A stretch of 64,000 nucleotides of DNA, from positions 62,001 to 126,000 of the forward strand of contig JAIUPL010000012.1 in NCBI GenBank assembly GCA_020160935.1. The letters run 5' to 3'. Shown piece by piece: positions 1,801-64,000 of the stretch. The notes beneath the pieces are model-generated. The model had not been told where the DNA came from. It did not search any database and saw only the letters and a program-made list of their open reading frames with translations. Each line of letters opens with the position of its first letter. Positions within the stretch are counted from its first letter, which is position 1. The translations under genes and the position numbers were made by a program. This stretch comes from Bacteroidota bacterium (GTDB lineage Bacteria; Bacteroidota; Bacteroidia; Chitinophagales; Saprospiraceae).

Positions 1801-3414
1801 ATGCTTTCAAACGATTTAAAATCAAAAATCAATAAACTTTGGGACAAGTTCTGGAGCAGAGGAATTACCAATCCCATCACGGCTATCGAGCAAATCTCGT
1901 ATTTGCTGTTTATGCGTAGAATTGATGATGCAGACCTGGATGCGCAAACGAAAGCGTCTTTTGCTGGAGTTGAGTATAAAACAATTTTTAGCCGACCCAA
2001 ATTGGACGAAAAAGGTAATCCGGTTAAGGATAAGGACAATCTGCCCATTTACGAAAATGCAGACGACTGCCGGTGGTCGTATTTTTCGCAATTGGACCCC
2101 GACTCTATGCTGGAACTGGTTTCTAAAAAAGCCTTTCCTTTTATCAAAAACCTGAATGACCCGACACAGCCATATACAAGGCACATGGACAACGCCATTT
2201 TCATCATCAACAACGCGGCCTTATTGGATGAGGCCGTAAAAGCCATTGATGAAATTTTTGAAGATATCAAAAAACAACAAGACGCGGGCCAGCAGTTTCA
2301 GGATACTCAGGGCGATGTGTATGAATACCTCATCAATGAAATCGGCTCCTCCGGCAAAAACGGACAATTCCGGACGCCGAGGCACCTTATTCAGTTGATG
2401 TGCGAACTGGTGGACCCCGACTGGACCGACAAAATTTGCGACCCTGCCTGCGGCACGGGCGGTTTTTTGGTAGGCGCTTACCAGCACATTCTCACCAAAT
2501 ACACCAGGGCCGAAGAAATTACCGAAGATGAAAACGGCCTGAAACGTTTTAAAAAATATGGCGGCGACAAAATCACCAAACAGGAGGTTTGGGACAACCT
2601 GAACGAAAAAACATTTTTCGGTTTCGATATTGACCAAACCATGGTGCGTATCGGTTTAATGAACCTGATGTTGCATGGGATCAAAATTCCGCAGATCGAA
2701 AACGTCGATACGCTTTCCAAAAGATACGATCAGCAATATCAGGATGGCGAATATTCGGTGGTGATGGCCAACCCGCCTTTCACCGGCCGAATCGACAAAG
2801 GCGGCATGAGCGACCAACTCAAAATAGATGGCACACAAAGCGAATTGCTCTTCCTGATCCGTATTTCCAAAATGCTGCGCCCGGGTGGCAGAGCCGCCGT
2901 GATCATCCCTGAAGGCGTATTGTTTGGCGGCAGCAAAAACCAACGGCAAACCCGGGAAATTTTGCTGAAAGACACTCAGTTGGAAGCCGTTATTTCCTTG
3001 CCCAGCGGCGCATTCAAACCCTATACCGGCGTTAAAACTGCTATTTTGCTGTTTACCAAGGCAGAAGAAGATAGCCAGACGTGGCATACCGAAAAAGTTT
3101 GGTTTTATGAATTGAAAAATGACGGCTACAGCCTCGACGACAACCGCAGAAAATTGGCCGAAAACCCGCTGCCAGTAGCCGTGAATGCTTACAAAACCCG
3201 CACTACCTCAACGCCCATTGAAAGAACCAATCACTTCTACGTACCCCTTGCCGAAATACAGGAAAACGGCCTCGACCTGAGCTACAATCGATATAAAAAG
3301 TTTGAATATGAAGAGCAAACCTACGAACCACCGCAGAAAATACTGGAAGCATTGTTCGCTTTGGAGGAAGAGATTCAAAAGGATATGTTAGAACTAAAAA
3401 ATTTGATTGGATGA
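1801..3414 (+). CDS. hsdM: Type I restriction-modification DNA methyltransferase subunit
   Basis: This 537-aa N6-adenine methyltransferase has the usual HsdM layout. An N-terminal helical HsdM_N domain (about 1-150, starting SKINKLWDKFW) precedes the Rossmann methyltransferase domain. The SAM-binding motif I is DPACGTGGF at residues 214-222 and the catalytic motif IV is NPPF at 324-327. The entry segment SSGKNGQFRTPRHLIQLM at about 183-200 is also typical. It should form an M2S complex with the next gene product and methylate adenines at the bipartite site set by HsdS. The stop overlaps the hsdS start (ATGA), indicating translational coupling. It appears complete, with no frameshift. Confidence 0.95.
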   Translation: MLSNDLKSKINKLWDKFWSRGITNPITAIEQISYLLFMRRIDDADLDAQTKASFAGVEYKTIFSRPKLDEKGNPVKDKDNLPIYENADDCRWSYFSQLDPDSMLELVSKKAFPFIKNLNDPTQPYTRHMDNAIFIINNAALLDEAVKAIDEIFEDIKKQQDAGQQFQDTQGDVYEYLINEIGSSGKNGQFRTPRHLIQLMCELVDPDWTDKICDPACGTGGFLVGAYQHILTKYTRAEEITEDENGLKRFKKYGGDKITKQEVWDNLNEKTFFGFDIDQTMVRIGLMNLMLHGIKIPQIENVDTLSKRYDQQYQDGEYSVVMANPPFTGRIDKGGMSDQLKIDGTQSELLFLIRISKMLRPGGRAAVIIPEGVLFGGSKNQRQTREILLKDTQLEAVISLPSGAFKPYTGVKTAILLFTKAEEDSQTWHTEKVWFYELKNDGYSLDDNRRKLAENPLPVAVNAYKTRTTSTPIERTNHFYVPLAEIQENGLDLSYNRYKKFEYEEQTYEPPQKILEALFALEEEIQKDMLELKNLIG

Positions 3415-6591: not shown

Positions 6592-7600
6592 AACTTATTC
6601 TCCTATAGTACACCCAATTTCGACACTGCATGAAATGCTGGAGTATCTAATTTGCGAAGTTTGGTGCAAAGCAGATAAAATAAATAACTGTATTGATTTA
6701 TTACATAGTGATTTCAAGAAAATATATGAGTGTCTGGATTGGCTAAAATCAGATGTGGATGATATTTTTGAACACAGCCGAGCGCTTGAAACCCATGAGC
6801 GTCAAAGTATTATTGACGCCTTTAAAAGCAATAATCAAATTGAAAATTTGTGCAATGGGGTAGTTAAACCCATAGAATTGACTTCACTTCCTTCTGTTGT
6901 TGAGATGAAAATGAAGCCGTTACTCGAAGTTTTTTATAGTCGATTACTAGATATTAAGAAGGTTCCTGGAGAAAAGTTGGACTATTACAAGCAGTTAGTA
7001 AAATTGAATAATTTTAAGACATGCCCAGTTTGTGGACTGGCCAATATTGAAACTCCTGAAAGTAGATATATTGAGGATTATGACCACTTTCTACCTAAAG
7101 CCTATTATCCTTTTGCTGCTGTAAACTTCAAGAATCTGGTTCCAACCTGTGACAAGTGCAATAAAAAACACAAAGGTGGCAAAAAGCCATTAGATAAAAA
7201 TGGAAAAGCATATTACCCTTTTGAATCAGGGCGGCCACCAATTAATATTAAAATTACACTTAAATTTATTGACTTTGATAGTGATCAAAAGTTAACGCAA
7301 ATGCCTAAATTCCAATTTTCGGGCGATGCAGATAAAAATGAAACCTGGAATTGGTTATACAATATCGAATCTCGTTACACGGATGAGTTCAAGAGATTTT
7401 CCTACAGTTGGTTAAGAAATTTGAAAAAAGAAATTGAGTTCAATGAATCTAAATCGGCAGAGCAATATATTGATTTCAAGATTGCCAATTATAAGGAAGA
7501 TGAGTTTGACGAGATGAAATTTTTGAAAATTGCATTACTCGAAGAAGTCAAAACAAAACAGGAGTGGATGGAAGTATACTCACAAAAAGTCTCACTTTAA
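6584..7600 (+). CDS. HNH-type nuclease partner of the AAA ATPase
   Basis: The 338-residue protein has a helical N-terminal half with no recognisable domain and a zinc-stabilised HNH core in the middle. C147-x-x-C150 (CPVCG) and C189-x-x-C192 (CDKCNKKHKG) would bind the structural zinc, D167-H168 in YDHFLPK is the catalytic beta-strand pair, and N184/H196 are candidates for the remaining HNH positions. The arrangement resembles PtuB-type HNH effectors. The gene starts inside the ATPase gene (8-base overlap) and ends the operon. Base composition is more A/T-rich than the housekeeping genes downstream, consistent with horizontal transfer of the defence block. I infer a DNase effector gated by the ATPase; the target is unknown. 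Confidence 0.82.
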   Translation: MLRTYSPIVHPISTLHEMLEYLICEVWCKADKINNCIDLLHSDFKKIYECLDWLKSDVDDIFEHSRALETHERQSIIDAFKSNNQIENLCNGVVKPIELTSLPSVVEMKMKPLLEVFYSRLLDIKKVPGEKLDYYKQLVKLNNFKTCPVCGLANIETPESRYIEDYDHFLPKAYYPFAAVNFKNLVPTCDKCNKKHKGGKKPLDKNGKAYYPFESGRPPINIKITLKFIDFDSDQKLTQMPKFQFSGDADKNETWNWLYNIESRYTDEFKRFSYSWLRNLKKEIEFNESKSAEQYIDFKIANYKEDEFDEMKFLKIALLEEVKTKQEWMEVYSQKVSL

Positions 7601-7774
7601 TATCGAATCATTGAAACTCGTATAGTTGCTAGAGTTGGGTGTTAAATTTTTGCACCGGGCTCAGGGCGCATAACTTCAGCCGTAACGATTGCCCCCCAGG
7701 TACACCTTTTTTATTCATCCAGTCGGGCATCCCCACACCCCAAAGTGGGGAATTTTCATGCATCAACTGACAAA

Positions 7775-8881
7775 ATGAATAAATCACTTCTCCAACGTAC
7801 TGTTTTAATAGGGCTGACCATCGTGCTGGCCGGCGCTATTCTGTATTTCGGCAGGCCGTTTCTGGTGCCCATTGCGCTGGCCGGCCTGTTGTCTATGTTG
7901 TTATTGCCGCTGGCCGGGTGGTTTGAAAAGAAGGGACTCGGGCGGGGGCTCTCTACGGCGCTTTCCGTGCTGGCGCTTGTCGTGGGTATTTTGGGTATGC
8001 TCGCGCTGCTGAGTTGGCAACTTACCAATGTGACGGACGACCTGTCCCAAATAAAAACCATAGCAGCCGAACGCATGGAGCAGTTGCGTCAATATGGGTC
8101 AGATCATTTGGGAATTTCGCGGGAGGAGCAACAGAAAATGATGGAAGAGAACAAGTCTTCCGGTGCGGAAAGTGCTTCCAAAATCGCCGCGGCGATTGTT
8201 TCCGGCTTCATGGGAGGCCTGGTTACATTTATCATCGCGGTGGTGTACATCTTCATGTTCCTGTATTATCGTTCGCATTTCAAGCAGTTTGTTCTTCAAT
8301 TGGTGCCGACAGGCAACAAGGCAGAAGCGACACGTGTAATGGCCGAGGCAAGCCGAATAGCACAAAAATACCTCGGTGGTCTGGGACTGATGATTACCAT
8401 GCTGTGGGTGCTGTATGGAATAGGTTTCAGCATTGTAGGTGTAAAAAACGCCGTATTCTTCGCCATTCTATGCGGGGTGCTGGAAATAATACCGTACGTG
8501 GGCAATCTCACCGGCACCGCCATCACACTGCTGATGACCATGGCTCAAGGCGGCGACACCAGCATGATGCTGGGGGTTGTCATCACCTACGCCCTGGTAC
8601 AGTTTTTTCAAAACAATGTGCTCACACCCCTGATTGTAGGCTCTGAAGTCAATATCAACCCGGTTTTTACGATCATGGCACTGATGGCAGGCGAACTGGT
8701 CTGGGGCGTTCCGGGTATGATTCTCGCTATCCCGATTCTGGGGATTTTGAAAATCATTTTCGATCACGTGGAGGTGCTCAAACCTTTTGGATTTCTTATC
8801 GGGCAGCCCAAACAGTCGGCGGGGGCAAACAAGGAAAAAGGCTTTCTCAGCAAACTGAAAGGTATATTCAAGTCAAAGTAA
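7775..8881 (+). CDS. AI-2E family transporter (PF01594-type permease)
   Basis: This 368-aa polytopic membrane protein begins MNKSLLQRTVLIGL. An upstream in-frame GTG at 7745 would add ten polar residues and I consider it less likely. It shows the family pattern: two N-terminal hydrophobic hairpins (about 8-60), a soluble coiled segment (about 75-125) rich in Q/E/K, then five or more helices including the conserved IPYVGNLTG and the C-terminal GIPGM-like stretch (VWGVPGMILAIPILGILK). Members are described as exporters of AI-2, sodium/proton antiporters or unassigned, so the substrate cannot be inferred. It appears separate from the defence operon, with 174 bases between them. Confidence 0.88.
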   Translation: MNKSLLQRTVLIGLTIVLAGAILYFGRPFLVPIALAGLLSMLLLPLAGWFEKKGLGRGLSTALSVLALVVGILGMLALLSWQLTNVTDDLSQIKTIAAERMEQLRQYGSDHLGISREEQQKMMEENKSSGAESASKIAAAIVSGFMGGLVTFIIAVVYIFMFLYYRSHFKQFVLQLVPTGNKAEATRVMAEASRIAQKYLGGLGLMITMLWVLYGIGFSIVGVKNAVFFAILCGVLEIIPYVGNLTGTAITLLMTMAQGGDTSMMLGVVITYALVQFFQNNVLTPLIVGSEVNINPVFTIMALMAGELVWGVPGMILAIPILGILKIIFDHVEVLKPFGFLIGQPKQSAGANKEKGFLSKLKGIFKSK

Positions 8882-8982
8882 ATAAGTGAGAAGAGAATGG
8901 TTATCTTGCAGCGCAAATAGCCGGCTATTTACAACAAGCCAGGCTGGTGTTCCATTCCTCATGCTTTAAAAACCTTTGCACG

Positions 8983-9813
8983 ATGAGTTTCTTTTCACGT
9001 TTGTCCAACGGCTGGAATATGGCCATGGTTAGTTTTGACACCATACAAAAAAGGCCATTTCTGATGTTGTTCCCTGTACTTTCACTGCTTTCTTTTATTG
9101 TGGTGTTGTCCACATTCCTGGGAGGCTCCTACTTTTTTCTGGGCGATGAAATACAGGCGATCATGGAAGATGAACAATATGGGAGAGTGGCAGGATTTGC
9201 CACCTTGTTTTTATACTACCTGATCAATTTTTTCATTGTTATCTTTTTCAACTCTGCGCTGTTGTATTGCGCCTCCAGAATTCTGGACGGCGAGGAAACA
9301 AGCGTGAGTGAAGGGCTGGAATTTGCTAACTCCCGGCTGGGTAAAATCTTCGCCTGGTCGGTAGTAGCCGCCACGGTGGGTATGTTGCTGAAATTGCTCC
9401 AGGAAACAGGTAAAATCGGGCAGTTCGTGTCCTCCCTGCTGGGTGTTACCTGGTCGATTCTGACATTTTTCGCCGTTCCAGTGCTCATTTTCCAGGATAA
9501 AAGCGTGATGGATACCATCAAGGAATCCGGCAGACTGATCCGTGAAAAATGGGGCGAATCGCTGGCTGCCAATATCAGTTTCGGCATTTTCCATTTGCTG
9601 GGTTTGGCAGTAGCCGCTCTCGTGGTCGTTTTGCTGTTCAATATCAATATTTTCCTGGCCATTCTGTTGGGCATCCTGATTTTCGCATTTGTCAGCACCT
9701 TTATTGCCACTGCTGAAACGATCTTCCTGGCAGCCATGTACAACCACGTATGTGAGAAGCCAACAGGCAATTTCGACGATCAGACCCTCGACAGCATGTT
9801 CATCCACAAATAA
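8983..9813 (+). CDS. DUF6159-like integral membrane protein
   Basis: I take the start as the ATG at 8983 (MSFFSRLSNGWNMAMVSFDTIQKRP) rather than an upstream GTG at 8947, because the segment W-x-M-A-x-x-S followed by KRPFLMLFPVLSLLSF is the characteristic N-terminus of DUF6159 proteins. About five to six hydrophobic helices span the 276 residues. The function is unknown. The next gene starts 4 bases after the stop, so the two are probably co-transcribed. Confidence 0.72.
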   Translation: MSFFSRLSNGWNMAMVSFDTIQKRPFLMLFPVLSLLSFIVVLSTFLGGSYFFLGDEIQAIMEDEQYGRVAGFATLFLYYLINFFIVIFFNSALLYCASRILDGEETSVSEGLEFANSRLGKIFAWSVVAATVGMLLKLLQETGKIGQFVSSLLGVTWSILTFFAVPVLIFQDKSVMDTIKESGRLIREKWGESLAANISFGIFHLLGLAVAALVVVLLFNINIFLAILLGILIFAFVSTFIATAETIFLAAMYNHVCEKPTGNFDDQTLDSMFIHK

Positions 9814-9817
9814 TGGC

Positions 9818-10540
9818 ATGTGCACTGTCACGTATTACCCCGGAAAAACCGGATTTATCCTGACCCACAACCGCGATGAAGCGCCCAAACGCGCATCGCA
9901 ACAAATAACGGATGCAGGAAATTCATACCGACGCTACGTGTTTCCGCGAGATACGGGCGCCGGAGGTACCTGGATTACTGCCGATGATACAGGACAGGTA
10001 GCCTGTCTGCTGAACGGCGCATTTATCAAGCACCCGCATCAACCACCCTACCGCCGTAGCCGTGGCTTGATTTTGCTGGATTGCTTTGAGGCGCCGGACC
10101 CGGTTCGATTCCTGGAGAATTATGATTTTTCAGGAATCGAACCTTTTACCCTCTTGTTTTTCAGGGCCAATACCGTACTGGAAATGCGCTGGGATGAATC
10201 GAGGTTGCATATGGCAACCCTGCCAGGCAACCAGACGCATTTTTGGTGTTCGGCTACGCTGTATCCACCCGATATGCAGGCGCAACGAGAACACGTATTT
10301 CGCAACTGGCTTTCGGAGCACGTTCAGGCGCCCAGGGCTGAAGATTTGCTGCAATTGCATCGGACAGGAAGCGTAGGCGACCCTGAAAACAACTATGTAA
10401 TGAACCGACAGGAACGTGTGCGTACGGTCAGCATTACACAAGTCGTATGCGCTGCCGACGAGGCCAGAATGCAGTATTTCGACCTGTTGAATAAGCGGGA
10501 GGATGTCCGCGCCCTAACATTACAAAGGGAATTAAACTGA
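9818..10540 (+). CDS. NRDE family protein (TANGO2-like)
   Basis: The 240-residue reading starting MCTVTYY is chosen because the family begins with Met-Cys and carries the NRDE signature shortly after; here N18-R19-D20-E21 follows the strand FILTH. A longer in-frame extension upstream overlaps the previous gene and is not needed. A further conserved element is GTWITADDTGQVACLLNG (about 50-67). NRDE/TANGO2 proteins have an Ntn-hydrolase-like fold; the eukaryotic relative is implicated in heme or lipid handling, and the bacterial role is unsettled. It is probably in an operon with the preceding membrane protein. Confidence 0.88.
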   Translation: MCTVTYYPGKTGFILTHNRDEAPKRASQQITDAGNSYRRYVFPRDTGAGGTWITADDTGQVACLLNGAFIKHPHQPPYRRSRGLILLDCFEAPDPVRFLENYDFSGIEPFTLLFFRANTVLEMRWDESRLHMATLPGNQTHFWCSATLYPPDMQAQREHVFRNWLSEHVQAPRAEDLLQLHRTGSVGDPENNYVMNRQERVRTVSITQVVCAADEARMQYFDLLNKREDVRALTLQRELN

Positions 10541-10625
10541 ATTTTCGCTCAATATCAGTGCGAAATTGTCATTTTTGCAGCACCAACGACGACACCGCAT
10601 TTTTAAAACCTAACATTCACTGCAT

Positions 10626-11150
10626 ATGGATGCGCGCGAAGGGACACTTCTGATCACCAGCCAGATGTTTACCTTGCTGGACAGAATTCCGAGATATGTG
10701 TACACACGACCGGTCAGCCTGTTTCATGGCAGCACGGTTGGGCAACACTTTCGGCATATTCTGGAGTTTTACACCTGCCTGCTGGAAGGAAGTAGCGCCG
10801 ACTATGTAAATTATGGCTGCCGAAAGCGCAATGAAGCCATTTCAGAAGATCCCTGCGTTGCCAAAGGGATTTTGGAATCGGTTACTACTGCTATCCAGAC
10901 ACTGGATACAAGCCGTACCGTAAAAGTACAAAGTGAATTTTCGGAAATGGATGATGAACACCCGATATACATGTCCAGCATCGGGCGCGAACTCCAGTAT
11001 GCATTTGACCATGCGGTGCACCACCTGGCTATTATCAGAATGGGGCTGGAAGCCCATTTCCCGGAAGTGCCGGTTGATCCGGATCTGGGTGTCGCGCCTT
11101 CTACGCTGAAGCATCGGCGCACACAGGAGGCTGTGGAAGCCGATAGTTAG
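10626..11150 (+). CDS. DinB-fold protein
   Basis: This 174-aa predicted four-helix bundle has histidines placed as in the DinB/YfiT metal site: H41 and H44 in VGQHFRHILEF and H129/H132/H133 in DHAVHHLAIIRMGL. The second half of that motif ends with the family's HxxxI-R helix. DinB-like proteins are mostly uncharacterised, with some acting as metal-dependent thiol transferases. The start ATG is preceded by an A-rich stretch. It lies 85 bases downstream of the NRDE gene and 57 bases upstream of the DoxX gene, on the same strand. Confidence 0.78.
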   Translation: MDAREGTLLITSQMFTLLDRIPRYVYTRPVSLFHGSTVGQHFRHILEFYTCLLEGSSADYVNYGCRKRNEAISEDPCVAKGILESVTTAIQTLDTSRTVKVQSEFSEMDDEHPIYMSSIGRELQYAFDHAVHHLAIIRMGLEAHFPEVPVDPDLGVAPSTLKHRRTQEAVEADS

Positions 11151-11207
11151 TTAGTACGAGCGCCGCCGTTGGTTACGAGCGAACTATTCACCTAATTATT
11201 TTTTGTC

Positions 11208-11606
11208 ATGTCTAAAACCAATATGACACTTTCCTGGGTATTGCGCATCATTGCTGCCATTATCCTGGGCCAAACCCTCTTTTTTAAATTTTCAGGGGCA
11301 GAAGAAAGCAAATACATTTTCAGTACGCTGGGCATGGAGCCCGCCGGCCGATACGGATCGGGCGTAGCCGAACTCATTGCAGTAGTGTTGCTGTTGATTC
11401 CCGGAACGGCAGCCTGGGGCGCTCTGCTTGGGCTGGGCGTTATCAGCGGTGCTTTGGTATCGCACCTGGCCGTGCTGGGTATCGAAGTAAAAGGCGACGG
11501 CGGCCTGCTGTTTTATCTGGCAGTGGCTGTTTTTGTGTGCTGTGCAGGCACTTTGTGGCTGCATCGGGAGCAGGTGCAACAGGTATTGCGCAGATTGCAA
11601 CACTGA
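11208..11606 (+). CDS. DoxX family membrane protein
   Basis: A 132-aa protein with four hydrophobic helices: residues about 9-28 (LSWVLRIIAAIILGQTLFFK), 50-70, 72-90 and 98-118. The helix-1 ending LFFKFSG and the following E-x-x-G-x-E/AEL (GVAELIAVVLLL) match DoxX proteins. Family members are implicated in oxidative-stress complexes or quinol oxidation, but no partner is visible here. The last codons lie inside the first copy of a 21-base tandem repeat, so the extragenic repeat starts within the gene and supplies its C-terminus (QVLRRLQH). Confidence 0.75.
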   Translation: MSKTNMTLSWVLRIIAAIILGQTLFFKFSGAEESKYIFSTLGMEPAGRYGSGVAELIAVVLLLIPGTAAWGALLGLGVISGALVSHLAVLGIEVKGDGGLLFYLAVAVFVCCAGTLWLHREQVQQVLRRLQH

Positions 11607-58300: not shown

Positions 58301-59226
58301 GGACGGAAGACTGGATGAAACCACGCCAGGAGCCGCCGCTGGCCATCGAACCGGAGCCCATTCGCATCATCAGTCCGGGTCACAGCGACAATCAAAGCGG
58401 CCTGAACGCCATGCAGCAGTTGATTCCAGCCACGGGCAGCAAGCGGCATTTTCTGGTGCCGCTGCCACCGGGACTGCACCCGGAATCGCCGGAACTGTTC
58501 GGTTTTTTCACCTACGAATTCCGCGTGGGGCACCGCGACGGCTGGAGCACTGCACAAGGCCGCTTCGGGCGGGCGTTGAGTTATCAAGGCGTACAACATC
58601 CTTATCCTCAATTGATTGCATCGCCCGACCGCAATGAAACACGGATTCGCGTTTCGGCGCCACATGCGCAGTCGGTGTTCGACGGCCGAGAAGTGACCGG
58701 CAAACCCGTGCGCACACAGATGTGGGCGCTTCTGTATGCGCAGGTACGCATGGCCGACGACAGCGACAACCGCAATGTCCTGCTCGACGACCGCTTTATG
58801 CGGCCCATGCCACGTTTCGATGTAGCAGGCGCCTTGCTGCTTGCACAGGATGACGACGCGCCGCAACGCTCCCTTGCAGAATGGAGCAATGCCGAAATCA
58901 GCGCCTTGCTCAAAAACTACGGCCTGCCCGCCGACAGCCCCCTGAGTGTGTTGTGTGTGGAAATGATGCCCGGCTCCGAACATTTCGTGATGCGCCGCGA
59001 ATACGTGGAAAGTTATCAGCACCTGGCCCGCACAATCGACGAGCCCGGCCGCGCACTGGATTTTATCCGGAACACGGGCGCTATTTTGCAGATTTCGCAG
59101 GCCATGGCGCAGGCGCCGCCGGAAGAATTGCTGGCCCGCCCGCTGTCCGACGATCTGGGCAGTTACCGGATGCTGCGGACATCGACGCTGACGGCGGTGC
59201 CGGAAGTGTGTTGTGTGGATTGTTGA
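55324..59226 (+). CDS. Giant protein of unknown function (1300 aa)
   Basis: I do not recognise this protein either. It has no signal peptide (MEAKISILTFPQRIENERLYFNVLVIP) and no catalytic motif that I can see. Most of it is predicted beta structure with short charged loops; Ig-like or FnIII-like strands with conserved W and Y appear around 330-490 and 960-1110. The C-terminus carries a short cysteine cluster (PEVCCVDC). The start follows the previous giant gene by 15 bases, and the pair is likely a two-component structure of unknown role. The next gene is separated by a strong palindrome (59296-59400). Confidence 0.75.
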   Translation: MEAKISILTFPQRIENERLYFNVLVIPRNFNPLLDDPIQALSPAWVNATLQLRAYVSDSLADYPMLNPAPAFNVLLPDMPTDPDATEIFNTLALRFDISSTATAEAPKATHFARKYLPLSYRDAFHFTRPRTDRAAIDDSYACALDKEKEPAGDFKPDNDQVSWGQVFAFCLRQPAIARKCGFIREAFVDLTPGFLANGGWLFVDFEAGSSYDFADMTAVKRYAARLPKIQAGENRPLFAAVQFRVRLDDMTPPPLNPEMPSAYDELLVESSMYDDGFAKIVHAQQPVSDHMLKETHDPEFPVTNDSGIRLAWDDEQLLIWMNRQMEENPKKPGTQERDDAPMGVFGYRIDVRERSADDANPNAWTSLCEVRNKTDLAIGAALIDSVNQQRELNVEVYPSIPDGRKNKHFWLPAYFAYWTGKSLVLQDEDAIDLFRKDQNTQQDGTPQAAVKNLMYDPVGLENVPLLYGRQYQFRTRFADMTGGGPAASQEPVYAAEAPVATHHFKRHAIPQTVRLQHVLPETDGAYFTENQLVVQRPLLGYPSVLFTGAYPNALDLLKADFDLALGSRDIGIADPDVDRLEIEVAVRALDMDTTVLKHQPQDHFAILYTTTRAFPADLNGDLNIPLVFVDRPVLNFSNSSDLQALGLSDNTLSINDLQELVLPTHRDIQITVRAKCSEKEGYYAHGNSITGMPSRIVTRRAATSETAFFKPTGAPTMIRGIYLRRTEEPKVKAKIKHVFIGSKATPEQSPTLIQRLATAIDVQNKGMSLMGKNGQRWQFGAARAIRHTLAPDNTSITIATEDDLINHWLVPITLLIDRDWSWDGIKPDSIDIFRRKKFALADDWEDEIKVGDVELKKGINIQALSNADRSQTFLCFLDAVEPKSTDPTLFPDEIMVEYRIEPRFKEENPELTVDAPLSLSLLLPITTPPAQMPNIVSAGMAMSRYQRDPSYANTEARQRYLWVEFEKPLDNPRDAYFGRITAYAPDPLLAEWTEDWMKPRQEPPLAIEPEPIRIISPGHSDNQSGLNAMQQLIPATGSKRHFLVPLPPGLHPESPELFGFFTYEFRVGHRDGWSTAQGRFGRALSYQGVQHPYPQLIASPDRNETRIRVSAPHAQSVFDGREVTGKPVRTQMWALLYAQVRMADDSDNRNVLLDDRFMRPMPRFDVAGALLLAQDDDAPQRSLAEWSNAEISALLKNYGLPADSPLSVLCVEMMPGSEHFVMRREYVESYQHLARTIDEPGRALDFIRNTGAILQISQAMAQAPPEELLARPLSDDLGSYRMLRTSTLTAVPEVCCVDC

Positions 59227-59295
59227 GGGGGCGAGGATGGATAGGTGAACGGATGGAAACTGATTTTTTTTTTTAAATCTACTGAAAAATCCGGT

Positions 59296-59400
59296 ACACT
59301 CTACGCATAGTGCCCTTTGTGAAACCTTGGTGTTCTTCGTGGTAAAAATTTTACCACAACGGCCACCAAGGTTTCACAAAGGGCACTATGCGTAGAGTGT
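59296..59400 (+). repeat. Long perfect palindrome (37-bp arms)
   Basis: The arm 59296-59332 is exactly complementary to 59364-59400, and the loop holds a second small palindrome around GGTAAAA-ATT-TTACC (59341-59353). The arms contain the phrases CCCTTTGTGAAACC and GCATAGTGCCC. The element sits between the giant pair and the M48-like gene, so it may insulate them. I found no second copy in this window. Confidence 0.85.
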
Positions 59401-59440
59401 GCAAATAATGCTAAGGAGCGCGTCCGTATCTCTTTTGGGT

Positions 59441-59448
59441 TATATTTG
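59441..59448 (+). promoter_or_regulatory. Possible -7 element upstream of the peptidase gene
   Basis: TATATTTG matches TAnnTTTG, 22 bases before the start at 59471. I do not find a TTG at the expected 19-21 base spacing, so this is weak. Confidence 0.3.
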
Positions 59449-59470
59449 CCCAAAATCTGCCCCTTTTCAC

Positions 59471-60688
59471 ATGCACCTTCGATTCACCCTTGCGTTTTGT
59501 TCGCTTTTTCTCATTCAACACAGCGAAGCGCAGCAACTGCTCCGCCTGAACCTCGACAAGCGTTGTATTTTCAACAAGGAAAATCCGGATGAGGAATTGT
59601 ACGCCTTCAGAACCGAAGCGCAGGATGTACCTATGCTCGTCGCCGACATATTGCGCACAGCCGGGGAAGACACCCAAAATTTCACCCTCGTTCAATCCAA
59701 TGTCGACAACGTAACAGCCGTGGTGAATGACAACGTCCGCTACCTGTTGTGGAGCCCTGATTTTTGGGAAACGGCCGATACCCTGTTGCGTTACGCCGCT
59801 TTCGCCCATGAAATAGGCCACCACCTGGCAAAACACAGCCTGACACCTGCCTTGAAACAGATAGAAGAACAGGAAGCAGACTTTTTTATGGGTTATATCC
59901 TGAGCATGAAAAACTTCCCGTTTCGTCAGGTGCAGAAACGACTTCCTGATTTTTTTACAAAATCCTCCGGTGAATACGACCGGGCCAGCGCCTTATCCGC
60001 AGGTTATGATCGGGCGCGAAAATCCCTCGAAGTATCCGCGCTTGCTTTTGAAAACGACCCGGACTGGAACCGGTTTCAGAAAGCGGAATTTCCCTTTCCG
60101 CCGCCGCCCTGCTTTCAGTTTGTGGCCTTGTCGCGCAAGGAAAGTTTTGCTGCCTGCCGCACGCTCGGCGACGTAGCCAACAGCATTGGCCAGGCATTCG
60201 GGCAAAAAGGTTACCCCTACCGTTTTTTGTCGGTACCCAATGAAACGGGCAAGCCAGAAGGTTTTGCCGTTGTGACCCAACTTGAACAGTATGAAGTCGA
60301 CGGGCATATTTTCAGAGACCCTGCTTATCGCTGGCAGGAATTGCCGCCGGCTCAAACATTTTCGTTGACACTCGACTACCTCAAAAGCCTGGTTTTTCCG
60401 CGCAAAGCGTATTTGCGCTTGTTCGTAGTGCTGGTGACCCAACAAAGTTATGCCGCCTCCGGCGAGCAGGTGCCCAAGGATATTGCCAAGTCGTGGGTGA
60501 GCCGGGGCCTCAATCGCCTGCCCCAAACCGTCGCCCAAAAACCTTTTTCGGAAGGCTACTCGGTAGATGTACTGGTGTATGAATTTGAAGTGCCGGAAAC
60601 CAACCATCGCCCCACCCAACATTGCCCCTGCCACCTCGACGCACGCGCCCACCTGCGCGCTACGAGGCTGGATGCCTGGCTGAAGTAA
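59471..60688 (+). CDS. M48-like HEIGHH zinc peptidase with signal peptide
   Basis: The start at 59471 (MHLRFTLAFCSLFLIQHSEA) gives a signal peptide. The 405-aa product has HEIGHH at 113-118 in FAHEIGHHLAKHS, followed by EEQEADFFMGYIL (132-144), in which E135 or D137 would supply the third ligand, as in gluzincin peptidases with an E-x-x-x-D element. The rest is beta-rich, with no further domain recognised. Its stop codon abuts the next start (TAAATG), so it is coupled to the EAD11-like gene. Presence directly before a DGR suggests a role in the same system, which is inference. Confidence 0.78.
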   Translation: MHLRFTLAFCSLFLIQHSEAQQLLRLNLDKRCIFNKENPDEELYAFRTEAQDVPMLVADILRTAGEDTQNFTLVQSNVDNVTAVVNDNVRYLLWSPDFWETADTLLRYAAFAHEIGHHLAKHSLTPALKQIEEQEADFFMGYILSMKNFPFRQVQKRLPDFFTKSSGEYDRASALSAGYDRARKSLEVSALAFENDPDWNRFQKAEFPFPPPPCFQFVALSRKESFAACRTLGDVANSIGQAFGQKGYPYRFLSVPNETGKPEGFAVVTQLEQYEVDGHIFRDPAYRWQELPPAQTFSLTLDYLKSLVFPRKAYLRLFVVLVTQQSYAASGEQVPKDIAKSWVSRGLNRLPQTVAQKPFSEGYSVDVLVYEFEVPETNHRPTQHCPCHLDARAHLRATRLDAWLK

Positions 60689-61447
60689 ATGACACCCACC
60701 CAACAACATTTCTCTATGCTGCTGCTCTCCGACGTTCGTAAAAAACTGCTGCTGCTCTGGCTTTCCCTCTCTGTTGTTTTGCTGCTGTTTTTTCTGGTAC
60801 AGGCGCAACACGGCAAATACGATGGCATCGAAGGCACTGCCTGGGGCTGGGTGTTTGCACAATTGCTGCCAGCGCTTTGCATCCTGCTGGCGGCCACGCT
60901 GGCGCGCCGACACACCGGCAAAACGGTGCTGCGTTGGGTGTACCGGAGTATCATGGCGCTGGCTGCACTCGTACTAGTGTTTGTGCTGCTTACCCTGCTC
61001 GGCATATCGGGTGGGTCGGCAGGCCTGAGTCTGGAAGAAGGTTTTAGCCGTTCCTGGCGCTACCTGTTGCCACTGCAAGCCTTGCTTTGTACCGTGCTGG
61101 GCGTACTTTTTTTCAAAAAAGAAAGCATTTTCCTGCCCAATGAAGCCCTGCTGCGCAACCATGCCGACCAACTGCTCCGACAGGCAGAAGGCCCGGAAGC
61201 GCTGAACCGCCGCCGGGCGCTGGAACTCTTTGTGGCCGCAGAAATGCCTGCGCTGCTGGATTTTCTGGAAGAAAAAATACGTGCTCGGGATACCGGCGAT
61301 GCGGCTCTGAATGATGTATTGTTGCTGAAAAACAACTTCACATTGCTACGCAAGAATACGGATACGGGCCGCCTGAGCGTGGAAGAATCGCGGCGAGAGT
61401 ACCAGCGGATTTGTGTGGCAACGATCAGTATTATTGAGTGTATTTAA
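60689..61447 (+). CDS. Four-TM protein with EAD11-like effector-associated domain
   Basis: The 252-aa product has four hydrophobic helices (about 20-40, 54-72, 87-106 and 124-142) and a C-terminal cytosolic domain (about 160-252). The segment LNDVLLLKNNFTLL (207-220), GRLSVEESRREYQR (227-240) and the final I-x-x-I-I-E helix match effector-associated domain 11 proteins, which in bacterial conflict systems hold effectors and recognition proteins together through EAD-EAD contacts. The start codon directly follows the previous stop. Its 3' end overlaps the first candidate start of the reverse transcriptase. The EAD11 call is from memory of the motif and should be confirmed by profile search. Confidence 0.7.
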   Translation: MTPTQQHFSMLLLSDVRKKLLLLWLSLSVVLLLFFLVQAQHGKYDGIEGTAWGWVFAQLLPALCILLAATLARRHTGKTVLRWVYRSIMALAALVLVFVLLTLLGISGGSAGLSLEEGFSRSWRYLLPLQALLCTVLGVLFFKKESIFLPNEALLRNHADQLLRQAEGPEALNRRRALELFVAAEMPALLDFLEEKIRARDTGDAALNDVLLLKNNFTLLRKNTDTGRLSVEESRREYQRICVATISIIECI

Positions 61448-62573
61448 TACTGTGGACGGCACTCTTTTTCCACAAATTTCCGATTTCCAAAATCTGTACC
61501 TTGCTTTCAAAAAAGCAAAAACAGGAAAACCATACACACCCAATATTGCCTGTTTTGAGGCTTGTCTTGAACAACAACTTTTTCAATTGCAGCAGGAACT
61601 TGTTTCTCGTTCATATCAACCGGGACAATACCGTGCATTCCTTATTTACGAGCCAAAAATCAGATTAATATCCGCTGCACCTTTTCGAGACAGGGTGGTT
61701 CACCATGCCATTTGCAATGTGATAGAACCCATTTTCGAATCATCTTTTATTCAAGATACTTATGCCAATCGTCGGGAAAAAGGAACCCACAAGGGAATCA
61801 AGCGTTGTCGTGATTTCCTGCGTCAATACAGGTTTGTATTAAAAGCAGATATCAGGAAGTATTTCCCAAGCCTTGATCTGCACATTTTAAAAAAATTAAT
61901 CTCCGATAAAATTTCCTGTGCCGATACCCTTGACCTTATTTACAAAATCATTGACAACTCTAATCCACAAGAGTTTGTGCCGGATTATTTCGCAGGCGAT
62001 AATCTTTTTTCTGTTCTTGAAAGAAGGCGAGGGCTTCCTATGGGTAATTTGACGAGTCAGTTTTTTGCCAACCTCTACTTGTCGCCGCTCGATCATTTTG
62101 TAACCGATACACTACGCCTGCGTTATGTCAGGTACGTAGACGATTTCATCGTATTTGCAAACGATAAAAAAACGCTCGCCAACGCTCGCCATCTAATTGA
62201 AGGATTTTTAGCCCAACAATTACGGCTACGGCTTCACCCAGATAAAACGCATATCACGCCTTGTGAGAAAGGGATTACATTTCTTGGTCAACGAGTATTT
62301 CGAACGCACCAAAAATTAAAAAATGAGAATATACGTCGTTTTAGGAAACGAATTCGCCGTCGGATAAAAGCATTTAAAGCAGGCAGACTACATCCAGATA
62401 AACTGGAACAACAACTTAATGCCTGGCTTGGGCACGCAAAACAAGCGGATACTTTCCGACTACGAAAAAAAATTCTCCACCAGTTATTTTTTGAAGAACA
62501 CATCAACATCGCTGAAACACCTGACGGCGTGTGGAAGGTGCTGGAAAGACCACGAATGCCCAAAAAGCCATAA
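61413..62573 (+). CDS. DGR-type reverse transcriptase
   Basis: The 386-residue form starts at GTG 61413; TTG 61434 and GTG 61452 are alternatives. The frame is closed upstream at 61374 and no ATG lies near the N-terminus. Motifs: DFQNLYLAF (24-32), RDRVVHHAIC (92-101), catalytic D146 in LKADIRKYFPSLD, the DGR-specific motif 4 GLPMGNLTSQ (207-216), the active-site YVDD at 241-244, and GITFLGQRVF. It synthesises adenine-mutagenised cDNA from the TR. It is coupled to the EAD gene and followed by avd after 52 bases. Retron and group II RTs differ at motif 4 and lack Avd. Confidence 0.92.
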   Translation: MWQRSVLLSVFNTVDGTLFPQISDFQNLYLAFKKAKTGKPYTPNIACFEACLEQQLFQLQQELVSRSYQPGQYRAFLIYEPKIRLISAAPFRDRVVHHAICNVIEPIFESSFIQDTYANRREKGTHKGIKRCRDFLRQYRFVLKADIRKYFPSLDLHILKKLISDKISCADTLDLIYKIIDNSNPQEFVPDYFAGDNLFSVLERRRGLPMGNLTSQFFANLYLSPLDHFVTDTLRLRYVRYVDDFIVFANDKKTLANARHLIEGFLAQQLRLRLHPDKTHITPCEKGITFLGQRVFRTHQKLKNENIRRFRKRIRRRIKAFKAGRLHPDKLEQQLNAWLGHAKQADTFRLRKKILHQLFFEEHINIAETPDGVWKVLERPRMPKKP

Positions 62574-62625
62574 AGTGGCTACAACATAGCCAGTAAATAT
62601 CTATTTGCCTTATTTCTAACACATT

Positions 62626-62967
62626 ATGCACGATACTGTACTGACCAAAATCTATGATTTCTGGAAACTAATCCTGCCCCTGGCAGGCAAATTTCCGCGA
62701 CAATACAAATTTGTTTTAGGCGACCGAATACAACATTTATCATCCGAACTTATGGAACGCGTCGTCGAAGCCTATTTCACTTCAGGCAACATCGAAAACA
62801 AACGTTCCATGATTCAAAATGCCAACCTGAAAGTTGAACTCCTGCGCCGATACCTGCGCCTGAGCCACGATTTAGGCATTTTATCATTCTCCACCCTCGA
62901 ACGTCTTCAGCGCCAGGTGGATGAAATAGGTCGTATGCTTGGCGGGTGGTTGAAAAGCCTGAAATAA
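62626..62967 (+). CDS. avd: Accessory variability determinant (Avd), four-helix-bundle protein
   Basis: A 113-aa basic protein with four predicted helices: MHDTVLTKIYDFWKLILPLA, GDRIQHLSSELMERVVEAYF, MIQNANLKVELLRRYLRLSH and ERLQRQVDEIGRMLGGWL. The typical Avd element KFPRQYKF-x-L-G-D-R-I is clear (about 22-35). Avd forms a pentameric barrel that binds the RT and TR RNA. The stop is 4 bases before a bidirectional hairpin. Confidence 0.9.
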   Translation: MHDTVLTKIYDFWKLILPLAGKFPRQYKFVLGDRIQHLSSELMERVVEAYFTSGNIENKRSMIQNANLKVELLRRYLRLSHDLGILSFSTLERLQRQVDEIGRMLGGWLKSLK

Positions 62968-62970
62968 AAT

Positions 62971-63007
62971 GCCTGACAGCCTTTTTTATACAAAAAGACT
63001 ATCAGGC
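62971..63007. terminator. Hairpin between avd and the TR
   Basis: GCCTGACAGCCTTTTT (62971-62986) pairs imperfectly with 62992-63007 (AAAAAGACTATCAGGC). On + it follows avd; on - it follows the TR transcript, so it could end both. Confidence 0.7.
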
Positions 63008-63152
63008 GGTTTGTATGTTCGGCTTTCCGATGGGTTGAACCATCGGAGGCACGGGAAGTGCGCTGGACTGTACTGTTGCACACTCTGGTCGACACCCGAT
63101 TGTGGCGACCAAACTCTGGCATACCATGTACCCTGAGGTATGGTGTATAGTG

Positions 63153-63276
63153 CTGGGCCAAACGGAAGCCATTATTGTTGTTCCGATTGTCAGGTTCATT
63201 GTTGTTGCGCTCCGCGACACGTAAGTTACTGGTATTGTTATTGTTCCAGGAACCGCCGCGAAGAACTCGAACCGAA
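63153..63276 (-). repeat. DGR template repeat (TR), minus-strand sense
   Basis: A 124-base segment whose minus-strand reading has many AAC/AAT codons (W-N-N-N-N-T-S-N-L-R, R-N-N-N-E-P-D-N-R-N-N-N-N-G-F-R-L-A-Q), exactly the adenine-rich signature of a DGR template. It aligns with the VR at 63412-63527; all substitutions outside the 3' end can be placed at TR adenines. The 3' 19 bases (63153-63171) equal the VR copy with one T/A difference and would be the initiation-of-mutagenic-homing region. It is on the opposite strand to the RT and avd, so its RNA must come from a minus-strand transcript. Confidence 0.9.
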
Positions 63277-63339
63277 TTGCACACTTCCCATCCTGATTTG
63301 TACCAGGACGAACAAAATTGATATTTTTTTCTAAAATTT

Positions 63340-63360
63340 TTCGGCTTCGCCGAAGTCTTT
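63340..63360 (+). terminator. Hairpin near the VR, plus-strand terminator-like
   Basis: TTCGGC-TTC-GCCGAA at 63340-63354 followed by a T-run to 63363. On + it would stop transcripts entering the variable-protein gene. On - it lies 57 bases beyond the VR 3' end, where hairpins needed for homing are reported in other DGRs (usually much closer), so such a role is uncertain. Confidence 0.5.
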
Positions 63361-63361
63361 T

Positions 63362-64000
63362 TTACGCCCGTGATGTTAAAAGGGTAAAAGTAAAAAGTGT
63401 AATATTCAGTCCTGGGCCAATCGGAAGCCACAACCGTCTGTCAGGAGCATAGTTGAAGCGCTCCGCGACACGTAAGTTACTGGAATTGAAATTGACCCAG
63501 GAACCGCCGCGAAGAACTCGAACCGAACTATCTGCACTCGTCTTTGAATCACAAGAATAAGGTTTGTAGGTATCCTGGCACCATTCCCATACATTGCCGC
63601 TCATATCATAAAGCCCCAGTTCATTGGCCTGTTTTCCACCAACTGGGTGCGTTTTTTTGTCGGAATTATTGTAATTCCAGGCTACCTCATTCAATGTATT
63701 GCCGCCTGCATACAGGTATCCTTTCGACTGTTTCCCGCCACGCGCGGCATATTCCCATTCCACTTCTGTGGGCAGGCGGAAGGGCAGGCCTGTTTTTTCC
63801 TTAAGTTTTGTAATAAACTGCTGGATATCATCCCAGGAAACTGATTCCACCGGGCAATCCGGGCAGTTCTTGAAATTAGAAGGGTTGCTGCCCATCACGG
63901 CCTGCCAGTCGGCCTGGGTCACCTCATATACACCAATTTTAAAACTACGCACCGTTTCTGAGTGCTGGCATTCATCCGCATCGCGGCCGCTTTCTGTGGT
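63362..64000 (-). CDS. DGR variable protein, FGE-sulfatase (C-type lectin-like) fold, 5' part outside window
   Basis: The visible 212 codons continue beyond position 64000, upstream of the reading. Family elements: FKIGVYEVTQADWQAVMG, SVSWDDIQQFI, RLPTEVEWEYAARGG, HPVGGKQANELGLYDMSGNVWEWC and RVLRGGSW, as in formylglycine-generating-enzyme-like proteins used as DGR targets. The C-terminal part carries the VR. The present frame passes the expected end GFRLAQD-stop (TGA 63406-63408 in another frame) and runs 25 further residues to TAA at 63362, because the VR lacks 8 bases relative to the TR. So the current copy encodes an altered C-terminus. N-terminal domains are unseen. Confidence 0.88.
   Translation of the reverse strand, partial: TTESGRDADECQHSETVRSFKIGVYEVTQADWQAVMGSNPSNFKNCPDCPVESVSWDDIQQFITKLKEKTGLPFRLPTEVEWEYAARGGKQSKGYLYAGGNTLNEVAWNYNNSDKKTHPVGGKQANELGLYDMSGNVWEWCQDTYKPYSCDSKTSADSSVRVLRGGSWVNFNSSNLRVAERFNYAPDRRLWLPIGPGLNITLFTFTLLTSRA
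63412..63527 (-). repeat. DGR variable repeat (VR) in the target gene
   Basis: A 116-base copy of the TR at 63153-63276. Identical blocks: the 5' RVLRGGSW-coding segment and the SNLRVAER segment. The 15 substitutions at TR adenines turn N-codons into V, F, Y, R, L and W. An 8-base gap in the second A-rich tract shifts the frame. The 3' 19 bases differ from the TR at one non-adenine site, as expected for initiation regions that distinguish VR from TR. Confidence 0.9.

Follow-up and report, generated by a model that had tools for sequence, protein, structure and literature searches.

Among described diversity-generating retroelements (DGRs), the one to which the locus reported here can be compared most directly is that of Bordetella phage BPP-1 (AY029185), which consists of a reverse transcriptase (RT), Avd, a template repeat (TR) and a variable repeat (VR), with the whole element on a single strand and ordered mtd, bbp7, TR, brt; we take bbp7 to be Avd. 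Through the error-prone RT such systems copy a template and repeatedly rewrite one end of a protein. A hairpin with a GAAA loop lies 3' of the BPP-1 VR. This hairpin is needed for efficient retrohoming, and phage DGR hairpins of this type have a stem of 7 to 10 bp and a 4-nt GRNA loop and lie 4 to 34 bp from the VR (PMC3240598); the BPP-1 spacer, in turn, folds and recruits the RT-Avd complex (PMC12875486). A second relevant group is the inverted DGRs (Group 4, Schillinger et al. 2012) of Shewanella, Vibrio and Photobacterium, attributed to a one-time event spread by transfer (PMC3521204), and RT inversion is elsewhere described as a minor DGR class (PMC6642488). DGR targets in which an FGE/CLec end is joined to peptidase or TIR domains have also been reported (PMC10907252, PMC7159879, PMC12691664), and in Nostoc punctiforme both DGR targets are reported to vary at adenines, at a low level (PMC12691664). 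Here we describe a DGR from a member of the Saprospiraceae (Bacteroidota), located in a 64,000-nt stretch of assembly GCA_020160935.1 (contig JAIUPL010000012.1, positions 62,001 to 126,000), which we call the window. It is a DGR of a known kind in the rarer split-strand form, with a target that is currently frameshifted. Taken jointly, the reading of an Avd-type DGR with a split-strand arrangement, an RNA tail, a frameshifted VR and the mechanism proposed below is one in which we place high confidence.

An earlier note on this DNA had claimed a DGR-type RT with a YVDD motif, an Avd gene after it, two copies of one repeat and an FGE-fold target, and therefore a full set of DGR components. All of these components are present where it had placed them (Table 1). 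The RT carries RRRGLPMGNLTSQ and RYVDDF, matches RVT_1 (E = 1.3e-21) and falls into PHROG 1423 in common with BPP-1 brt (416 and 421 bits). In a phmmer search of PDB it matches 8ub7, a 328-aa RT, best (202.6 bits); second comes a group II RT chain at 66.5 bits. We take 8ub7 to be the BPP-1 complex, its 328 residues being the length of BPP-1 brt. In a tree for which we assigned the DGR labels ourselves and which included no named retron RT, the RT groups with BPP-1 brt rather than with group II introns (29 DGR-labelled rows, BPP-1 brt included, against 4 group II rows; branch support, 99/95). We left out of this count one more row with a very long branch, an RT that the same genome encodes next to a Cas1-like open reading frame (ORF). 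The Avd product exceeds the cut-offs of Pfam bAvd (79.7 bits; cut-off, 40) and NCBIfam DivGenRetAVD (87.8 bits; cut-off, 80) and matches the PHROG "Avd protein of DGR," while a search against PDB sequences alone gave no convincing match (best, Bbp7, E = 0.63). Both reading frames are open.

The TR and VR confirm this picture. Over an alignment of 128 columns they differ by 16 substitutions, of which 13 lie at TR adenines, with adenine accounting for 30 of the 120 aligned bases (hypergeometric P = 4.7e-7); in the first 110 columns the figure is 13 of 14 (P = 4.7e-8). Tabulated by TR base, the substitutions are concentrated at adenines, as the earlier note had said of nearly all changes, and are not spread evenly over the four bases. 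Three of the 16 (T>A at column 90, T>A at column 114 and C>G at column 124) lie elsewhere and count against our reading. Where the template has N codons, the earlier note listed V, F, Y, R, L and W in the VR; of these, L and W are products of the frameshift described below and not of adenine substitution. A rival explanation is an RT of group II intron or retron type, accompanied by an ordinary duplication of a gene end; a group II model is indeed the top NCBIfam match of the RT, though at 153 bits against a cut-off of 300 (retron_St85, 54.3 bits; cut-off, 235). That explanation is contradicted by the RT tree, the PDB scores, the presence of Avd and the adenine-directed substitutions, and we give it practically no credence. 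The DGR reading is supported because 13 of 16 substitutions fall at adenines, the RT groups with BPP-1 brt and the PDB scores agree; neither of the two refutation checks proposed in the earlier note went against it.

As read from the sequence, the RT and Avd are encoded on the plus strand, and the TR, a structured tail, the VR and the target are encoded on the minus strand. From the right, the minus strand presents the target with its VR, then the TR and then the structured stretch, which meets the 3' end of avd head-on. The basic DGR interpretation in the earlier note is supported but incomplete, having missed this split of strands along with the frameshift, the RNA tail and a tract 3' of the VR. 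Of 198 scanned loci, 156 yielded 197 TR/VR pairs that were used for the substitution, indel, strand and flank counts; we excluded pairs that had fewer than 8 mismatches, less than 75% of mismatches at A or a TR over 2 kb away from the RT. The surveyed loci are what the searches returned, near-duplicates included, and not a random sample. An RT at E ≤ 1e-40 was found in 26 genomes among 149 relatives (own genome included). A class-level search for further loci returned the own genome only (1/395), and a phylum-level search returned 19/395, 17 of them from one genus, g303.

In 9 of these 156 loci, where the TR/VR pair is no farther than 2 kb from the RT, the TR lies opposite the RT strand. Seven of the nine belong to the 10 Saprospirales Avd-type loci and two to the other 146, a group that takes in Saprospirales loci from further RT clades (Fisher P = 1e-8, the loci not being independent). 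The strand label needs at least 5 changes on a quickly made tree of 68 RTs, 4 of which are forced by well-supported branches; the strand flip recurs on the RT tree. The locus resembles Group 4 inverted DGRs in having the RT on one strand and the TR, VR and target on the other, but Group 4 comprises three cases and a one-time event, in contrast to the 9 of 156 loci, at least 5 changes and Avd genes on either strand found here. It also differs from cyanobacterial DGRs, which provide many of its nearest RTs: their TR and RT share a strand in 20 of 21 loci. A separate observation concerns the Acaryochloris marina plasmid pREC1 (L328), where the DGR RNA tail lies opposite the RT and Avd, our scan found no TR/VR pair, and an IS200/IS605 transposase and a second transposase are located between the tail and Avd.

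The VR lacks 8 nt of the TR run CGGAACAACAATAATGG, and its frame shifts before the conserved GFR end. The target consequently reads past position 63406, the stop of the GFR frame, and ends in LWLPIGPGLNITLFTFTLLTSRA; in the GFR frame, an ORF (63406 to 63594) stops right after the VR homology ends. The adenine-directed pattern is present on both sides of the deletion. A second Avd-type DGR of the genome, on contig C17 (L005), lacks 1 nt in the corresponding run of its VR, and there too the GFR frame stops soon after the VR. Among the 197 TR/VR pairs we counted 23 internal indels, 17 in frame and 6 frameshifting (L004, which is the DGR locus of the window, and L005, L070, L089, L154 and L160), and indel surroundings are 45% A compared to 27% in the TRs. 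Frameshifted loci make up 3 of the 10 in the Saprospirales Avd-type set and 3 of 146 elsewhere (P = 0.0035), although two of the first three share one genome. Two records whose titles name isolates likewise contain frameshifted VRs: Calothrix sp. NIES-4105 (L154) and Anabaena sp. 90 (L329; plasmid pANA02, a complete record, in which the VR at 2880 to 3003 has a 1-nt deletion). We infer that the RT slips in AAC runs, that the 8-nt deletion would be one such slip, and that selection then acts against frameshifts; new retrohoming from the intact TR would overwrite the frameshifted copy, which lacks its conserved GFR end.

The frameshift could instead be fixed, in which case the element might no longer act. 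A DGR dying in this way would have the same parts, but the C terminus of its target would be a pseudogene and retrohoming would have stopped. Both Avd-type targets of the genome are frameshifted, and a fourth locus, on contig C27 (described below), has a partial TR only, with no RT or Avd found within 18 kb. Yet neither the RT frame nor the Avd frame is interrupted, the RNA tail is well folded and agrees with our covariance model, and there has been little drift since the last copying because only 1 of 14 substitutions in the first 110 columns lies outside adenines; we therefore judge a dying element unlikely. Less likely still is that the indels are assembly errors, with the VR variants of a mixed population collapsed to a false consensus. 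Variable repeats are difficult to assemble and both Avd-type VRs of this genome (2/2) are affected, but long genes seem intact within the window and its surroundings (an impression, not a count), the adenine-directed pattern continues on either side of the deletion, and frameshifted VRs appear in the Calothrix isolate record and in the complete Anabaena plasmid. A limited literature search found no description of VR frameshifts; in one DGR paper a mention of frameshifts concerns RT genes. The preferred explanation remains slippage of an RT on an adenine-rich template followed by selection.

A structured tail was to be expected 3' of the TR because the BPP-1 spacer is known to fold and recruit RT-Avd. 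The minus strand at 62960 to 63130 folds with a z score of -7.22. A covariance model, R1, was built from an alignment (A3) of 22 loci, 19 of them cyanobacterial by title and none from Bacteroidota. Of 33 predicted pairs in A3, 29 have changes on both sides, and the alignment holds 144 double-changed cells compared to 39.8 ± 6.7 in shuffles. Searched against the 64-kb window at E ≤ 1, R1 gave a single match, at the tail (39.6 bits, E = 6.3e-8). Across 97 loci (1.03 Mb, L004 included) its matches at E ≤ 0.5 number 38 and are spread over 37 loci, of which L063 and L097 look like the same contig. All 22 matches with a same-strand TR start from -2 to +113 nt 3' of that TR, and these include the split loci L004, L062 and L125; the remaining 16 matches test nothing because no same-strand TR was found for them. 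On 79 viral contigs plus BPP-1, seven contigs matched at E ≤ 0.5, starting -7 to +71 nt from the TR 3' end. Among 18 later loci, 7 matched (five cyanobacterial plasmid loci, L325 and, weakly, L330). The covariation count of a 54-row alignment (578 cells versus 144.5) leans towards the model. R1 matches 6 of the 10 Saprospirales Avd-type loci (L004, L062, L064, L071, L072 and, only in a smaller search, L005).

Several results limit the generality of the tail. R1 found no match in 60 of the 97 loci (Avd-less ones included), in the remaining four (L065, L067, L068 and L070) of the 10 Saprospirales Avd-type loci that have a TR/VR pair, in the BPP-1 spacer (best, 2.3 bits) or in any of 9 g303 loci, whose RTs are near to these. 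A scan not designed for Bacteroidota promoters found promoter-like sites at no more than the chance level (2, compared to 4.0 in shuffles). Rfam 15 models run over positions 59000 to 64000 at E values up to 1 matched only with seven microRNA models and, weakly, one small-RNA model, and six loci searched at the gathering threshold gave 0 matches; as far as these searches go, Rfam does not contain the tail family. The microRNA matches belong to an intergenic palindrome (59292 to 59405), where hairpin models of this class match both strands below their cut-offs. Handa et al. (2025) are said to expect conservation of the structure in distant taxa; what is new here is the covariance model, along with its application to split loci.

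In a model drawn partly by analogy from BPP-1, the TR and the 160-nt tail would be transcribed as a separate minus-strand RNA whose end, within 62971 to 63007, would abut the 3' end of avd. Binding of the tail by the RT-Avd complex would be followed by cDNA (complementary DNA) synthesis starting there, the TR would be copied with random bases opposite adenines, and the cDNA would replace the VR of the neighbouring target. To our knowledge, how the cDNA chooses the VR over the TR, and how distant targets are found, has been little studied outside BPP-1.

Counts in the sequence that follows the VR were made on 68 loci with an Avd and an RT at least 44% identical to that of the window, one VR each, with CTTT, CTCT, CTTG, CTTC, CTAT or CTG accepted as a unit, a spacing of 6 to 9 nt and at least 4 units scored as a pass. 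In 50 of the 68 loci the VR is followed, at a median of 7 nt, by a C/T tract in which units of about RYYCTTT form chains of 4 to 8. Such chains occur in 1 of 68 TR flanks, 4 of 302 other gene ends and 22 of 1,360 random stretches. The mean unit spacing of 7.51 nt is bounded by the allowed 6 to 9 nt; an independent sign of the period is the autocorrelation of CT after VRs at lags of 7 to 8, 15 to 16 and 23, which is absent after other genes. Hairpins with a GNA or GNNA loop occur in 30/68 VR flanks, 0/68 TR flanks, 4/302 gene ends and 5/1,360 random stretches, and tract and hairpin occur together in 22 of the 68 VR flanks. Counting at least three CTTT units alone gives 28/68 VR flanks, 0/68 TR flanks and 2/302 gene ends; by locus type, such units follow 0 of 36 Avd-less VRs, 3 of 76 VRs of Avd loci with an RT less than 44% identical, and 35 of the remaining 85.

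With phyla typed from record titles, the tract is present in 17/21 loci of Cyanobacteriota, 8/10 of Saprospirales, 4/4 of Chlorobiota (two near-identical), 7/8 of Chloroflexota, 6/8 of Pseudomonadota, 2/3 of Acidobacteriota, 1/2 of Planctomycetota and 5/8 single-locus groups, and in 0/2 loci each of Nitrospirota and Verrucomicrobiota. In a later plasmid set (8 of 15 plasmid records), loci with an RT at least 44% identical showed the tract in 4/4 loci with a pair (7/8 VRs and 0/4 TR flanks), but they are not independent because they come from cyanobacteria akin to those already seen; three loci with RTs 39 to 41% identical showed it in 0/4 VRs. A TR/VR pair was found in 16 of 19 further genome loci, where the tract follows 21 of 22 VRs; of these 22 flanks, 7 were already known. 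Fifteen of the 16 loci belong to genus g303, and the CTG unit of this genus had been included in the pattern beforehand. BPP-1 itself has no phased tract, and no description of the tract was found in a small literature search that included the excerpts of PMC3240598, PMC10907252 and PMC7517822.

A phased tract and GNA hairpin after the VR would mark it as the recipient. Given its presence after 50 of the 68 VRs but after just one of the 68 TRs, the tract could give retrohoming a one-way direction and let distant targets be found. We tentatively propose, at somewhat less than even confidence, that the tract is a cis element that addresses the recipient in a large Avd-type DGR clade spanning Bacteroidota, Cyanobacteriota, Chlorobiota, Chloroflexota, Pseudomonadota and others. 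The regular spacing prompts the guess that an Avd ring, presumably a pentamer, contacts one tract unit per subunit. Three points weigh against the proposal. The broad unit was chosen after viewing the flanks on which it is counted; the tract of the window itself has three units and fails the cut of at least 4; and arrays of the TTTGCCC type are also present in other parts of the genome. Across the genome, no enrichment is seen for ACNCTTTTACCCTTTT when up to 2 mismatches are allowed (39 occurrences versus 59 for a reversed control), and CTTTTACCCTTTNNNCTTT is enriched (50 versus 25 in the control). In the window, the candidate counterpart of the phage DGR hairpins has a 6-bp stem and a three-base GAA loop and lies 53 nt from the VR. 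The single-stranded DNA fold of the VR flank is unremarkable (z = -1.44). This hairpin in its exact form is not confined to DGR targets, with 8 of its 11 copies in the genome lying in palindromic elements.

The tract and hairpin might have nothing to do with retrohoming and instead be a terminator or Rho-loading site of target genes, or an effect of composition. A T run often follows the hairpin, the 45 nt after VRs are 69% C/T and 15% G, and both the TTTGCCC arrays and the palindromic copies of the hairpin would fit such an origin. However, other gene ends of the same loci carry the tract and the hairpin at the low rates given above, base-shuffled VR flanks have three CTTT units in 9 of 2,550 cases compared to 35 of 85 real flanks, and among six further FGE genes of the genome only the one on C27, which has a partial TR, carries the tract. 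On balance we consider this alternative possible but rather doubtful, and less probable than a recipient address. In the palindromic elements L278, L280, L282 and L285 (contigs C23, C25, C28 and C51) the hairpins lie 150 to 250 nt apart, framed by TTCGGCTTCGCCGAA and TTCGGCGAAGCCGAA and with GCGGATT-like heptamers inside, and they are identical to the hairpin behind the targets on C29, the contig of the window, and C17.

The six FGE genes, none known as a DGR target, were an unplanned comparison and provide the best single test of the tract. The C27 gene (L020, 2160 to 2510), the only one with both tract and hairpin, encodes a caspase-TSP3-FGE protein with a GNA hairpin behind it. About 110 nt after its stop codon lies a TR-like repeat of about 73 nt, in the core of which 8 of 8 differences are at A; extending the gapped alignment beyond the core changes this to 15 of 26. 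The stretch C27:115000-133000 yielded no RT or Avd. The locus appears to be an RT-less DGR remnant, on which an RT might act from elsewhere, and it was found because the tract pointed to it. The other DGR loci of the genome differ in layout. At C17 (L005, C17:176000-194000; 7420 to 11242) the RT and VR lie on the minus strand and Avd and the TR on the plus strand, so that TR and VR are on opposite strands, and the target is a TIR-TPR-FGE protein. At C51 (L006, C51:364000-377748) an RT without a bAvd match is accompanied by one TR and three FGE targets without indels; no tract of at least 4 units follows these VRs, and the DGR adjoins an LRR-Roc-COR protein. An FGE gene on C34 (L023, C34:123416-124117), similar at its end to the C51 targets, was considered as a further C51 target and rejected, since only 21 of its 49 differences from the C51 TR are at A; at most it is a target that is old or has drifted. 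A fourth RT of 350 aa (L260, on C20) lies beside an ORF that by eye resembles Cas1.

The target itself is a 609-aa ORF whose FGE fold was recognized in the earlier note, although the end assigned to it at 63952 is an internal GTG and the ORF runs past the window to the equivalent of position 65191. Its FGE domain (PF03781, 155 bits) covers residues 386 to 585 of 609, with the extreme end out of frame. It is preceded by an apparent N-terminal signal peptide, judged from the residues, an M48-like domain with HEIGHH (23.2 bits; cut-off, 20.3) and four TSP3 stretches. Its probable role is that of a variable ligand-binding sensor, such as has been proposed for conflict systems diversified by DGRs. 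Unlike the conflict targets of cyanobacteria and other multicellular bacteria, it is an apparently secreted M48/TSP3/FGE protein. Two neighbouring products were also noted. That of 59399 to 60688 is a paralogue of the M48-like N-terminal part of the target (about 200 residues at 28% identity), and that of 60689 to 61447, directly before the RT, has a C-terminal EAD11 domain (30.2 bits; cut-off, 26). EAD adapters have been linked to conflict systems (PMC10907252).

Table 1. Features of the DGR locus in window coordinates (L004 coordinate minus 1 plus 60000)
Feature	Position	Strand	Remarks
DGR reverse transcriptase	61413..62573	+	386 aa from putative GTG start
Avd, accessory variability determinant	62626..62967	+	113 aa; Pfam, NCBIfam, PHROG
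Structured 3' domain (Sp) of the predicted DGR RNA	62967..63126	-	convergent with avd; R1 match, fold z score
Terminal 16-bp hairpin, then ATTTTATTTC; probable DGR RNA end	62971..63007	-	
TR, adenine-rich, frame open from RGGSW to GFR	63149..63276	-	
Hairpin TTCGGC-GAA-GCCGAA, GNA loop	63340..63354	-	3' of target; candidate target-site hairpin and/or terminator
Target gene, 3' part	63362..64000	-	whole ORF L004:3363-5192, 609 aa
Phased pyrimidine tract, three CTTT units 7 and 8 nt apart	63377..63400	-	3' of VR
VR with 8-nt deletion relative to TR	63408..63527	-	

The resemblance to BPP-1 extends to the side of the RT tree, the PHROG and a candidate counterpart of its hairpin behind the VR, and that to cyanobacterial DGRs extends to the tract and to most of the sequences from which R1 was built. 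What lifts this locus above the routine is the candidate recipient address together with the RNA covariance model. The model can locate DGR RNAs on either strand, and with these two handles DGR RNAs and DGR targets may be found without an RT as the starting point, as C27 shows. Frameshifts in AAC runs, finally, would be a cost of adenine-rich templates that substitution tables hide.

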